The translations under genes were made by a program, and so were the position numbers. A stretch of 64,000 nucleotides of DNA, from positions 310,001 through 374,000 of the forward strand of contig NZ_JAHFZZ010000004.1 of NCBI RefSeq assembly GCF_018603905.1, in the 5' to 3' direction. The notes beneath the pieces are model-generated. The model was not told where the DNA came from. It did no database searches and was given only the letters and a program-made list of their open reading frames with translations. Of this stretch, positions 30,038-36,291 are shown piece by piece. Source of the DNA: Nonomuraea sp. NEAU-A123 (lineage in GTDB: Bacteria; Actinomycetota; Actinomycetes; Streptosporangiales; Streptosporangiaceae). Position 1 is the first letter of the stretch. Every line of letters starts with the position of its first letter.

Positions 30038-30050
30038 TCGTCCGCGCTCT

Positions 30051-30090
30051 TCTAGGCGCTTCTAGGCGCTTCTAGGCGCTTCTAGGCGCG
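30051..30090. repeat. Four 10-bp tandem repeats at the TetR gene end
   Basis: Three copies of TCTAGGCGCT and a fourth, TCTAGGCGCG, run head to tail. The fourth contains the TAG stop of the minus-strand TetR gene, so the stop codon with its surroundings has been multiplied downstream of the gene. Confidence 0.9.
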
Positions 30091-32456: not shown

Positions 32457-32580
32457 CCCTGCGGGGGTGGCGGGACTCTTAGCTGACCGCGTCCAGGCCG
32501 ATCGCGTCCTTGCCGGGGTGGCGAGACTCCCACTGACCAGGCCCTTGCGGGGGTGGCGGAACTCCTAGCTGACCACGTCC
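32457..32580. repeat. Three degenerate repeats copying the permease tail
   Basis: Units at 32458-32494, 32508-32542 and 32543-32580 share a (T/C)GCGGGGGTGGCG core followed by GACTC and CTGACC. The third includes the ABC-2 permease stop (DVVS-stop on the minus strand); the first reads DAVS-stop, a duplicated gene tail. No gene lies in the 137-bp gap. Confidence 0.75.
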
Positions 32581-33413
32581 TTGCGGCGGAAGCGGCGGAA
32601 GGCCACGGCGATCAGGATGGCCGCGTAGGTCACCGACACCGAGGCGCCCTTGGCCATGCCGCTCCAGTCGAGCTCCGGTGCCAGGGCATCGAGCCAGGCC
32701 GTGTTCCAGAAGGTCGGCAGGAACTCCCGCAGCGACCCCAGCGCCTCGACCGCCTGCAGGATGGTGCTGACGATCCACAGGCCCATGGCCCCGCCGACCG
32801 CGCCGAGCGGCGAGTCGGTCATCGTCGAGATGAGGAACGCCAGCGCCGCCACCACCAGCTGGCTGACCAGGGAGTAGCCAATCACGATGCCGAAGCGCGG
32901 CAGCACGTCGAGCGCAGCGATCGTCTCACCGGTGCCGGGCACCTGGATGTCGTGCCAGCCGAACGCCAGTGTGCCGGCGAGCAGCGCCATCAGCGGCAGG
33001 CAGATCACCGCCGCCGCCGAGTAGCCGAGCGCCACGATGATCTTCTGTCGCAGCAGCCGATCACGCGGCACCGGCGCCGCCAGCAGGTAACGCAGCGACG
33101 ACCAGCTCGCCTCGCTGGCCACGGTGTCACCGCAGAACAGGGCGACGGCCACGACCAGCAGGAAACTGGCCGACACCGACAGAGCGAACGCCGCGAAGTT
33201 GAGGCCACTGGCCGTCGCCAGGTCGGAGATGCGCAACGCCGACTGCTGCTGCCCGCTGGACTGCGGTCCGAACTGGAAGGCGATCACCAGGATCCACGGC
33301 AACGCGAGCAGCAGCCCGAACATGACGAGCGTGCGCCGCCGCTTGAACTGCCTGACGATCTCGACCCTCAGCGGCAGCGTGCGGCCCGGCGCGTAGCCGG
33401 TCGCGGCGGTCAT
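32565..33413 (-). CDS. ABC-2 type transporter permease
   Basis: A 282-aa integral membrane protein with six hydrophobic helices: FGLLLALPWILVIAFQF, FALSVSASFLLVVAVALF, AAAVICLPLMALLAGTL, LVSQLVVAALAFLIS, AVGGAMGLWIVSTIL and ASVSVTYAAILIAVAF. SWSSLRYLLAAPVPRDRLL is the cytoplasmic coupling helix of ABC-2 permeases. It should pair with the ATPase domain of the hydrolase-ABC fusion just upstream. ATG 33413 overlaps the stop of the 57-codon repeat ORF, suggesting coupled translation. The substrate is unknown. Confidence 0.9.
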   Translation of the reverse strand: MTAATGYAPGRTLPLRVEIVRQFKRRRTLVMFGLLLALPWILVIAFQFGPQSSGQQQSALRISDLATASGLNFAAFALSVSASFLLVVAVALFCGDTVASEASWSSLRYLLAAPVPRDRLLRQKIIVALGYSAAAVICLPLMALLAGTLAFGWHDIQVPGTGETIAALDVLPRFGIVIGYSLVSQLVVAALAFLISTMTDSPLGAVGGAMGLWIVSTILQAVEALGSLREFLPTFWNTAWLDALAPELDWSGMAKGASVSVTYAAILIAVAFRRFRRKDVVS

Positions 33414-33583
33414 GAACCCTCCTCGACAACGGTCACGACTTCTTCTCTTCGGTGGCGGACCACGATGCTCTCCGCGGCCGGGTGGCGGGTCACGATGCTC
33501 TCTCTCACCAGGTGGTGGGTTGCGACGCTCGCTCCGGCCAAGGGGCCGGTCGTGACGCGCTCTGTGAGCAGGGGGCCGGTCAC
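33410..33583 (-). CDS. 57-aa decapeptide-repeat microprotein ORF linking ATPase and permease genes
   Basis: GTG 33583 overlaps the stop of the fusion gene as GTGA, and the TGA at 33412-33410 overlaps the permease ATG. The ORF thus fills the whole intergenic gap in one frame. It reads as five 10-residue units, e.g. VTGPLLTERV, TTGPLAGASV, ATHHLVRESI, VTRHPAAESI, VVRHRREEVV, then TVVEEGS. Units begin with a V/T-T pattern and often contain an acidic residue near position 8. It is alternately basic and acidic with no membrane segment. The encoding DNA is a 30-bp tandem repeat. It could be a translated coupling element, a small subunit, or repeat DNA that happens to stay open. Confidence 0.5.
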   Translation of the reverse strand: MTGPLLTERVTTGPLAGASVATHHLVRESIVTRHPAAESIVVRHRREEVVTVVEEGS

Positions 33584-33600
33584 GACTGCTGGCCGATGAG
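33451..33600. repeat. 30-bp tandem repeat, five copies
   Basis: Exact 30-bp periodicity begins at 33451, 33481, 33511, 33541 and 33571. Copies start with GGTGGCGG or GGGGCCGG and contain a TCACGATGCTC-like core. The last copy includes the stop of the ABC fusion gene. The period keeps one minus-strand frame open throughout. Confidence 0.9.
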
Positions 33601-36291
33601 GTCGAGGAACACGTCTTCGAGTCGGGGGCCGTGGCCGTTGGTGGAGACGGCGGCGCTGAGCAGCACCGATACCGGGCCCGCCGAGACCAGGCGGCCTCTG
33701 TGCATGACCACGGCGTGGCTGCACGTCTGCTCGACCTCGGCCAGCAGGTGGCTGGAGACGATCACCGTACGGCCGTCGCGGGCGTAGCGCTTGAGCACCT
33801 CGCGCATCTCCCTGATCTGGGGCGGGTCGAGGCCGTTGGTGGGCTCGTCGAGCACGAGCAGGTCGGGGAGCCCGAGCATGGCCTGGGCGATCGCCAGCCG
33901 CTGCCGCATGCCCTGCGAGTAGGTGCGTACGGCCCGATCCAGCGCCTTGCCCAGATCCGCGATCTCCAGCGCGTCGTCGAACCGGGCGTCGGCGGTGGGA
34001 CGGCCGGTGGCGGCCCAGTAGAGCTCGATGTTGTCGCGGCCGGACAGGTGCGGCAGGAAGCCGGGTCCTTCGACGAACGACCCGAGTCTGGACAGCACGG
34101 GCGCGCCGGGGGTCACCCGGTCGCCGAAGATGCGGACCTCACCGGCGTCGGGGTGGATGAGCCCCAGCATCATGCGCATCGTGGTCGTCTTGCCCGCGCC
34201 GTTGGGACCCAGCAGACCCAGCACCTGACCGCGCTCGACCCGGAACGACAGGTTGTCCACGGCCAGCTCGCCGTTGCGGTAGGCCTTGGTGAGCCCGCTG
34301 ATCTCCAACGGCACCGCCTCGTCTGGCGACGGGTCAGAGGTGAACGGGTCGCCGTCCGCCACAAAGGTGCCGGAGTGGTTGCCGTCCTTCTGGGCGGTGG
34401 TGGTCTGGCCGTTGTCCGACACGAAGGTGTCGACGCCGCTGTCGTCCATCTGGACGGTGGTGGACCCGCTTCCGTCCCGGACGGTGGCGGCCTTTCGGGT
34501 GAAGGGGGTGCGGCGGCGGGATGGTGTGCGGCCGGTGGCCAGGATGATGGCGGCCAGGGCGATGGCGGCCAGCGGCATCGCCCACACCCACCACGCCACC
34601 CCGGTCGTGGGTGCGGCCAGTGCGGCCACCGTCGGTACGGCGAGGGCGGGGGCGGCCAGGCCGATCCGGTAGGAGGCGGGTTCGGCGGGTGTCGCGTAGC
34701 CCATGTCGGTCGTGGTCACCGCCAGCCGCAGCCGGTGTCCCACCGCGAAGCGGAAGTCGACGGCGGGCAGCGTGACCGTGGTCTCCACGCTCTCGGCGCC
34801 GTCCGGAACCGTCACGCGCAGCGGCGAGACCAGCCCGGCGGGCAGGTTGGGCGGCTGGGCGGTGTCGGCCACGTCGTAGAGCTTGGCGAACAGCGTCACC
34901 TGGCCCTTGCCGTAGACCTTCAGCTTGACCGACGGGCTGCCGGTGAGCTGGAGCGGCGCGGTGAGCGGCGCCGACTCGAAGGTGGCCACCTGGCCGGGCA
35001 TGTCGAGCCCGACGCTGAGGTTGGTGGTGCCGCCCCCGCCGAGCAGGCCGCCGACGCCGGGCACCGTGGAGATGGAGGCGGGGGAGCCGCCGGGCGGGTT
35101 GGCGATGTTCTGTTCGGGGCCGGTGAGCGGGATCGCGGTGGTGGCGGTGCCGCCGAGGCCGGGGTAGGAGCCGGACTCGGGGTGGAGCCTGATGCGCTGG
35201 CGGGTGCCCGGGTCGCGGCCGCCGTCACGGGTGACGGTGAACTTCTGCGGGACCGGTGAGCCGTCACCCTTGAGGTAGTGGCCGAACCAGCCGGCCGTCT
35301 GGTCGTAGAGCCAGTCGACCTCGCCGTTGCCGCCGTCGTGGCCGCCGTCGAACCAGGCCAGGCTCACCGGCGTGCCGGCCGAGGCGATCGCCTTGGCGTT
35401 GGCGTCGGCCTGGCCGAGCGGGAACAGCGAGTCGCGCTGCCCCTGGATGAGCAGCGTCGGCGCCTTGATGCGGCCGGCCACAGCGACCGGGCTGGACTTG
35501 CGCAGCAGCTCGATCGCCTCGGGCGTGGCCCGGCCGGTCTTGGCGACCTGCTGGTACATCTCGCAGACCGCGGGCAGGAACCTGCCGCACCTGGCCTGCT
35601 CGGCCGTCAGCGGCACGCTCTGCTGGGTGAGCGCGCCGAGCCCCTGAGCGGCGCCGCCGCCCTGGACCGGGGCGCCGCGGCCGAAGAAGAAGCCCGCCCA
35701 CATGCGCTTGAACACGCCGTTGGCCGGGCCCTGGCCGCCACCGTCGGGGAACAGCGCGTCGGCCAGGTCGGCCCAGGTGATCTGCGGCACGATCGCGTCC
35801 ACGCGGGTGTCGTAGGCGGCCGCCATCAGCGAGATGGCCCCGCCGTAGGAACCGCCCGCGATGCCCACGCGCGGGTCGCCGGCCGCGTCGAGCCGGACCT
35901 CGGGCCGCTTGGCCAGCCAGTCGATGAGCTGCTTGACGTCCTTGACCTCGTAGTCGGCGGAGTTGAGCGCGATCTCGCCGGTCGAGCGGCCGAAGCCGCG
36001 CGCCGACCAGGTCAGCACCGCGTAGCCGTCCTGCGCCAGCCGCACCGCCTGCTGGCGGACGCTCTGCTTGCTGCCGCCGAAGCCGTGCGCGAGCAGCACG
36101 GCAGGCGCCTTCCCGCCACCCGCGGCCGGGAAGAACGTCGCGTCGAGCTCGACCCGCTGGTCATCGGCCGGCCCGTCCACGACGGAGATGCGCTGGTCGA
36201 GACCCCGCACTTCGGGCGCGGACGGCCACACCAGCCACGTCACCACCCCGGCGAGGGCGAGCACCGCGACCAGCGCGGCCACACGTTTCAT
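33580..36291 (-). CDS. Fusion of membrane-anchored alpha/beta hydrolase and ABC transporter ATPase
   Basis: A 903-aa two-part protein. Residues 5-22 form an N-terminal anchor. An alpha/beta hydrolase of the CocE/X-Pro dipeptidyl-peptidase type follows: LLAHGFGG, nucleophile GGSYGG with Ser 148, Asp in GQRDSLFPLG, His in DGGHDGG, and a beta-sandwich PepX_C-like domain (about 345-550). A second membrane helix (about 563-586, VWAMPLAAIALAAIILA) leads into a linker carrying two 18-residue repeats (about 607-645). The ABC ATPase then shows Walker A GPNGAGKTT near 695, signature YSQGMRQRLAIA and Walker B LLVLDEPTNGLDP. The topology puts the hydrolase outside and the ATPase inside. Its permease partner is encoded downstream. 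Confidence 0.88.
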   Translation of the reverse strand: MKRVAALVAVLALAGVVTWLVWPSAPEVRGLDQRISVVDGPADDQRVELDATFFPAAGGGKAPAVLLAHGFGGSKQSVRQQAVRLAQDGYAVLTWSARGFGRSTGEIALNSADYEVKDVKQLIDWLAKRPEVRLDAAGDPRVGIAGGSYGGAISLMAAAYDTRVDAIVPQITWADLADALFPDGGGQGPANGVFKRMWAGFFFGRGAPVQGGGAAQGLGALTQQSVPLTAEQARCGRFLPAVCEMYQQVAKTGRATPEAIELLRKSSPVAVAGRIKAPTLLIQGQRDSLFPLGQADANAKAIASAGTPVSLAWFDGGHDGGNGEVDWLYDQTAGWFGHYLKGDGSPVPQKFTVTRDGGRDPGTRQRIRLHPESGSYPGLGGTATTAIPLTGPEQNIANPPGGSPASISTVPGVGGLLGGGGTTNLSVGLDMPGQVATFESAPLTAPLQLTGSPSVKLKVYGKGQVTLFAKLYDVADTAQPPNLPAGLVSPLRVTVPDGAESVETTVTLPAVDFRFAVGHRLRLAVTTTDMGYATPAEPASYRIGLAAPALAVPTVAALAAPTTGVAWWVWAMPLAAIALAAIILATGRTPSRRRTPFTRKAATVRDGSGSTTVQMDDSGVDTFVSDNGQTTTAQKDGNHSGTFVADGDPFTSDPSPDEAVPLEISGLTKAYRNGELAVDNLSFRVERGQVLGLLGPNGAGKTTTMRMMLGLIHPDAGEVRIFGDRVTPGAPVLSRLGSFVEGPGFLPHLSGRDNIELYWAATGRPTADARFDDALEIADLGKALDRAVRTYSQGMRQRLAIAQAMLGLPDLLVLDEPTNGLDPPQIREMREVLKRYARDGRTVIVSSHLLAEVEQTCSHAVVMHRGRLVSAGPVSVLLSAAVSTNGHGPRLEDVFLDLIGQQS

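Follow-up and report, generated by a model that had tools for sequence, protein, structure and literature searches.

The soil actinomycete Nonomuraea sp. NEAU-A123 carries, within the 64,000-nt stretch of its DNA analysed here (the window), two adjacent genes joined by a short open reading frame. The product of the upstream gene (P0003) gives profile matches to CocE/NonD, Peptidase_S15 and ABC_tran, and that of the downstream gene (P0002) to ABC2_membrane_2; by these matches the ABC ATPase fusion and the permease named in a preliminary description of the locus are real. The features, in window coordinates, are:

33580..36291, minus strand: upstream gene, a CocE/NonD (S15-type) hydrolase fused to an ABC ATPase, 903 aa (profile matches)
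32565..33413, minus strand: downstream gene, an ABC-2 permease, 282 aa (profile match)
33410..33583, minus strand: bridging (putative relay) ORF of 57 codons with GTG start and TGA stop (ORF reading and junction census)
33451..33590, minus strand: imperfect 30-nt tandem array of 4.6 copies, whose units echo the junction motif TCRTGACC
33580..33583, minus strand: GTGA, the 4-nt overlap of fusion stop and bridging start (sequence)
33410..33413, minus strand: ATGA, the 4-nt overlap of bridging stop and permease start (sequence)
33418..33424, minus strand: GAGGAGG, Shine-Dalgarno-like, 4 nt 5' of the permease ATG (read from the sequence; putative role)
32505..32586, minus strand: second array, period 35, 2.3 copies, across the permease stop and unrelated to the bridge array

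The 57-codon GTG...TGA frame (33583..33410) fills the gap between fusion and permease as had been described, and translates as VTGPLLTERVTTGPLAGASVATHHLVRESIVTRHPAAESIVVRHRREEVVTVVEEGS*. Both 4-nt overlaps are likewise present, the GTG lying in the TGA of the fusion (GTGA, 33583-33580) and the TGA in the ATG of the permease (ATGA, 33413-33410). The 30-nt tandem repeat reported for the gap is real (33451-33590) but imperfect, with 69% matches and a score of 89 over its 4.6 copies, and it extends 11 nt into the upstream gene. The statement that one frame alone stays open does not hold: across the gap two forward frames out of three are free of stops, the second being that of the permease, in which no start codon precedes the permease ATG. 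In dinucleotide-shuffled versions of the gap the bridging frame is open in 39%. The -4 overlap, described as the usual operon style of this genome, is the commonest co-oriented spacing (193/1059 pairs) in a sample of 1.894 Mb made up of the window, L047-L058 and L186-L265; gene calls in this and the other genome counts come from a simple in-house script, not a standard annotator. A DNA search of the genome with the array returned the array itself (3.5e-122) and no second copy, the next match having E = 0.017 over 25 bases. Since a separately sequenced sister species also has the array, an assembly error is an unlikely source.

At the junction with the 35-nt array (32505-32586) the sister species is ~85 nt shorter. 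The units of this array match at only 80%, whereas the adjoining genes differ by a few percent, and because of this low match the array has either been lost in the sister or is changing very fast. Elsewhere in the window (30049-30089) a perfect 10-nt repeat, 4.1 copies of CTTCTAGGCG with CTAG in each unit, enters the 3' end of a minus-strand gene by 8 nt.

The fusion-permease junction was read in 165 loci, 109 of which are distinct once identical ones are removed. A tree of 57 sequences places N. guangzhouensis, N. aurantiaca and N. rhizosphaerae closest at this locus (clade supports 0.87, 0.98 and 0.96). By script, 100/109 junctions have a single NTGA overlap with the NTG in the permease frame, with either no gap or a longer permease N-terminus; hand reading adds L155 to the in-frame class, giving 101/109. 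Because nearly all junctions are thus direct or in-frame, the ancestral state is, on this comparison, one 4-nt overlap (NTGA). Double 4-nt bridges occur in 6/109 junctions belonging to five lineages: the window (57 codons), N. guangzhouensis (66), N. rhizosphaerae (41), G029 (23), Sphaerisporangium corydalis (29) and G238 (22). One junction (L032) holds a long insertion without a bridge, which may be IS-like, as judged by its terminal palindromes, and one, the class-level outgroup L046, lacks NTGA, its permease starting 2 nt past the ABC stop. In every junction read except these two, an unbroken chain leads from the ABC stop to the permease start.

The N-terminus of the permease is itself highly variable: in the 100 junctions classed as direct or in-frame, anywhere between 47 and 206 nt separate the ABC stop and the body of the permease. 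Such variation is seen in L090/L076 (N. aurantiaca), L107 (N. endophytica) and other Streptosporangiaceae.

The preliminary description had proposed looking for the open frame and both overlaps in related genomes, and N. guangzhouensis keeps all three, with 66 codons to the 57 of the window. Its array exceeds that of the window by one 30-nt unit but is short of one codon, the two indels being 30 and 3 nt long. N. rhizosphaerae (L010), which the tree puts in the same clade with support, has a different array with a 15-nt period and an intact bridge. The peptides of the N. rhizosphaerae, G029 and window bridges are mutually unrelated, and N. aurantiaca has an in-frame extension of 45 codons at the position of the bridge.

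The two overlaps had been regarded as independent couplings, hard to reach by chance. This estimate fails because it counts one event as two: a duplication spanning the junction copies a single overlap to both ends of the new DNA. In S. corydalis (L136) and in another member of its genus (L293) C-terminal codons of the ABC gene are repeated beside the second overlap, and the stretch around the overlap in both is, from this arrangement, evidently tandemly duplicated. In the window gap the motif TCRTGACC occurs three times with at most one mismatch (0.20 in shuffles) and five times with at most two (1.80 in shuffles); in the N. guangzhouensis gap there are five occurrences with at most one mismatch (0.26 in shuffles), and in that of N. 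rhizosphaerae the motif has no matches. The junction echo of the window would accordingly be older than the plain duplications of L136 and L293, and both of its supposed couplings most likely descend by copying from a single ancestral overlap.

In this genome two more bridging ORFs were noticed that overlap the adjoining gene on either side (G000:C12:288592-288682 and G000:C1:316852-316956), each lying in an array that straddles the end of the upstream gene. In the former, 29/36 sites agree between the surroundings of one overlap and those of the other, which resembles a junction duplication.

The 1.894 Mb sample contains 227 tandem arrays with periods of 10-120 nt, of which 138 are genic, 66 intergenic and 23 boundary-straddling. 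The boundaries crossed are 24 gene ends as against two gene starts, at co-oriented and convergent junctions alike, and the intergenic DNA of this genome seems to grow by echoing gene ends. When junctions were compared with N. guangzhouensis (117 with a counterpart, 152 tried), 21 differed by 15-150 nt. Divergence between the two species is 2.7, 1.8 and 6.7% at the three codon positions of 95 genes, 3.7% in 42 length-stable gaps and 12% in 17 length-changed ones; the bridge array, at ~17-17.8%, ranks fourth of 66 gaps.

Junction differences of 15-150 nt are divisible by three in 13/21 cases against N. guangzhouensis and in 7/12 against N. aurantiaca (G000:C34:280001-474000 compared with G065 and G060), which is above one in three. 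As the measured stretch includes gene ends, the excess may reflect coding constraint or repeat units of 3n.

The amino-acid sequence of the bridge appears to be unconstrained. Between the window and N. guangzhouensis 29/171 aligned sites differ, distributed 9/12/8 over the codon positions. A dN/dS below 1 had been suggested as a sign of translation; the ratio in the bridging frame is 0.78, but for this one species pair it is 0.79 and 0.80 in the other two frames, so that nothing distinguishes the frame that is supposedly read. The peptide has no family match in Pfam or NCBIfam, and no homologue was found on plasmids at E up to 1. A conserved microprotein was considered and rejected, purifying selection particular to its frame being absent from the one pair compared.

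The open frame, as distinct from the peptide, is perhaps under selection. Using shuffle-based openness, at least 5/6 out-of-frame expansions would turn out as bridges with a probability of 0.004; treating N. rhizosphaerae and the window as a single expansion raises this to 0.013. Both values assign 0.05 to the insertion case L032. Phase alone is not significant (5/6, p = 0.11; 4/5, p = 0.19). Shuffle openness across the six bridges is 39-85%, a null which underestimates the openness of L136 and L293, where the bridges are duplicates of coding sequence. In 6/6 bridges the highest codon score of the three belongs to the bridging frame. As the shuffle P for this coding-bias advantage ignores repeat periodicity, control arrays were relied on instead: an advantage at least as large as that of the window was seen in 2/81 open frames of 18 other intergenic arrays with periods divisible by 3, and in 1/38 open frames of other intergenic arrays with other periods. 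The codon score of the window bridge exceeds those of 94.5% of 475 intergenic gaps and lies below those of 96% of gene pieces. In the in-frame extension of N. aurantiaca the frame expected to be read is not the best-scoring one, and genome-wide the relay frame scores best in 9/16 relay gaps of at least 40 nt.

Co-oriented gene pairs 10-300 nt apart number 582, and 60 of them have NTGA at both ends (51.6 expected). Counting frames that begin at the NTGA stop in the 1.894 Mb, 19/23 relay-phase gaps (the window's own included) are open where 13.6 are expected (P 0.004), as are 14/20 in-frame gaps (14.0 expected) and 4/17 other-phase gaps (7.2 expected; relay against other-phase, Fisher p = 3e-4). 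This relay-phase excess was noticed post hoc. In 0.8 Mb of G010, G065 and G060 the open gaps are 3/4 relay, 11/13 in-frame and 2/6 other-phase; all four relay gaps come from the sister species G065, one being the bridge junction itself, and within this sample G010 and G060 have none. The excess of relay-phase openness, seen in this genome and not independently replicated in those 0.8 Mb, is therefore not put forward as general. One bridge, at G000:C34 (near 323083), is open here and interrupted by stops in the sister species.

We consider it about an even chance (roughly 0.5) that the bridging ORF is a translational relay grown from a duplicated junction, the sequence of its peptide being immaterial while the open frame and its overlaps are retained. 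In the ancestral NTGA arrangement the TGA of the fusion would overlap the permease start, and ribosomes finishing the first gene would restart on the second. A tandem duplication spanning this junction would then have placed a copy of the overlap at either end of new spacer DNA, leaving an open bridge when its phase was right, and gain and loss of units together with rapid change would have produced the 30-nt array. Ribosomes terminating on the fusion would restart on the GTG and translate the array, and termination at the bridging TGA would deliver them to the permease ATG; what would matter is the open frame and the two overlaps, whichever amino acids are encoded. We infer that the array began as a junction duplication, that its frame is translated, that coupling is transmitted through it and that it has been kept for that reason.

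How far a spacer interferes with coupling varies among published cases. According to PMC10666635, a spacer of ~20 nt nearly abolishes termination-reinitiation in E. coli and Haloferax, while studies cited in PMC12548453 report coupling unaffected up to +25 nt and, in one case, kept at +62 nt; because of the latter reports a spacer need not cut coupling. A spacer of 166 nt would cut off the permease unless this gene initiates by itself, for which GAGGAGG is present, or the spacer is translated. The strong Shine-Dalgarno sequence of the permease itself speaks against a relay.

A close rival to the relay is a neutral by-product, in which junction-spanning duplications accumulate because neither flanking product is damaged by them, the ORF being incidental and GAGGAGG serving for initiation of the permease. 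We regard this as quite possible, though not as our first choice. Changes in junction length are common (the 21/117 given above), arrays straddle 3' ends rather than 5' starts (24 as against 2) at co-oriented and convergent junctions alike, and the bridge array is the fourth most diverged of the 66 gaps; moreover one duplication phase in three yields a bridging frame, GC-rich DNA is often open (the 39-85% of the shuffles), and the genome's relay excess was not independently replicated. Harder to accommodate are the recurrence of bridges at this junction in five lineages, with one clear out-of-frame exception, and the coding-like bias of the bridging frame in two unrelated arrays.

The remaining explanations are far less probable. 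An RNA element (attenuator, terminator or processing site built of hairpin units) is suggested by short palindromes in some units, such as CCGGCC CCTT GGCCGG, but seems improbable: folding is not clearly above that of shuffles (z -1.19 in the window, -0.70 in N. guangzhouensis), there is no Rfam match, and a simple scan found no terminator-like site; a promoter search likewise found nothing. Slightly harder to credit is that the bridge is what is left of an earlier N-terminal permease extension, now out of frame near its 3' end and without a present role. N. aurantiaca, of the same clade, has its 45-codon in-frame extension at the equivalent place, long and variable permease N-termini occur in many other Streptosporangiaceae, and the coding-like bias is compatible with coding ancestry; against this, blastn of the array with the N. 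aurantiaca gap matched the two flanks and nothing between, and the two bridges of another genus are plain junction duplications. This reading is about where the bridge came from, and a relay role would be consistent with it. The preliminary description had given two readings. One, a peptide whose translation couples the two genes, is retained here as a hypothesis. The other was a microprotein with a function of its own such as that of a transporter subunit, and the open frame, the coding-like codon bias and the position within a transporter operon agree with that. Such a product is nevertheless the most improbable of these, being absent from 103/109 distinct junctions, unrelated in sequence among N. 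rhizosphaerae, G029 and the window, free of frame-specific constraint (dN/dS ~0.8 in all frames, substitutions 9/12/8) and without a family match.

The known elements most like the putative relay are the mycobacterial interspersed repetitive units (MIRU), which go back, reportedly, to Supply et al. 1997. The copy number of MIRU varies in tandem, and their insertion site has been named 'DTGA'. According to PMC12548453, they are short repeats whose ORF couples to the neighbouring gene at -4 nt; they appear mobile, are present across many mycobacteria, and leave expression little changed on insertion. It had been stated that no equivalent of the bridge is described, and as far as that source goes MIRU are a described parallel. 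The bridge resembles them as a repeat ORF with -4 overlaps (GTGA, ATGA), known here from its sequence, and its array also varies in tandem copy number between the window species and N. guangzhouensis. It differs in having no interspersed family in its own genome (next match E = 0.017 over 25 bases), in that other species have arrays of unrelated sequence at this position, and probably in its origin: MIRU appear mobile, whereas this array looks home-made, its units echoing the local junction and two relatives showing local duplications. By analogy the bridge would work like a MIRU, yet by the test of an interspersed family it is none.

Both ends of the bridge are ordinary -4 overlaps, of the kind at which termination-reinitiation on ATGA or GTGA is described in PMC6728339, PMC10666635 and PMC12548453, so that the 4-nt overlap expected of a translationally coupled pair is found twice; what differs is that two overlaps stand in series across a 166-nt spacer. 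Another small ORF between two operon genes, also at a transporter gene, is mgtQ in the mgtC-mgtB gap of Salmonella, a translated ORF which controls translation of the transporter gene (PMC8092293). It encodes eight residues, lies 51 nt past the mgtC stop with its own Shine-Dalgarno sequence, and reportedly acts through stem-loops and ribosome-destabilising residues; the overlaps at both ends and the repeats present in the bridge are not described for mgtQ in the available text of that paper. The upstream "ribosome delivery" ORFs treated in PMC12548453 would share with a relay a function in being read rather than in the peptide, but they lie upstream of one gene, whereas the bridge links two and varies by repeat units.

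Neither bridges formed by junction duplication nor intergenic arrays in Nonomuraea were found described in the open-access papers searched; the new element here is local origin by junction duplication together with recurrence at one site. A wider proposition is that NTGA pairs generate MIRU-like relays of their own by junction duplication, that open bridges are kept for coupling whatever peptide they encode, and that this has been repeated at this junction in the Streptosporangiaceae. We hold this to be doubtful, though possible.

Double overlaps which look too perfect for chance can come from a single event, and this bears on the annotation of small ORFs within operons. If the relay is true, the need for a reading frame is separated from the need for a peptide, and there would be a class of sequence-independent small ORFs that conservation screens miss. 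The six junctions would then supply naturally varied bridges between the same two genes, with lengths of 22 to 66 codons and mostly unrelated sequences, in which coupling over a spacer could be measured directly. Should relays also be self-made, junction duplication would be a general route by which coupled operons acquire spacer DNA, and a source from which new small genes could arise.
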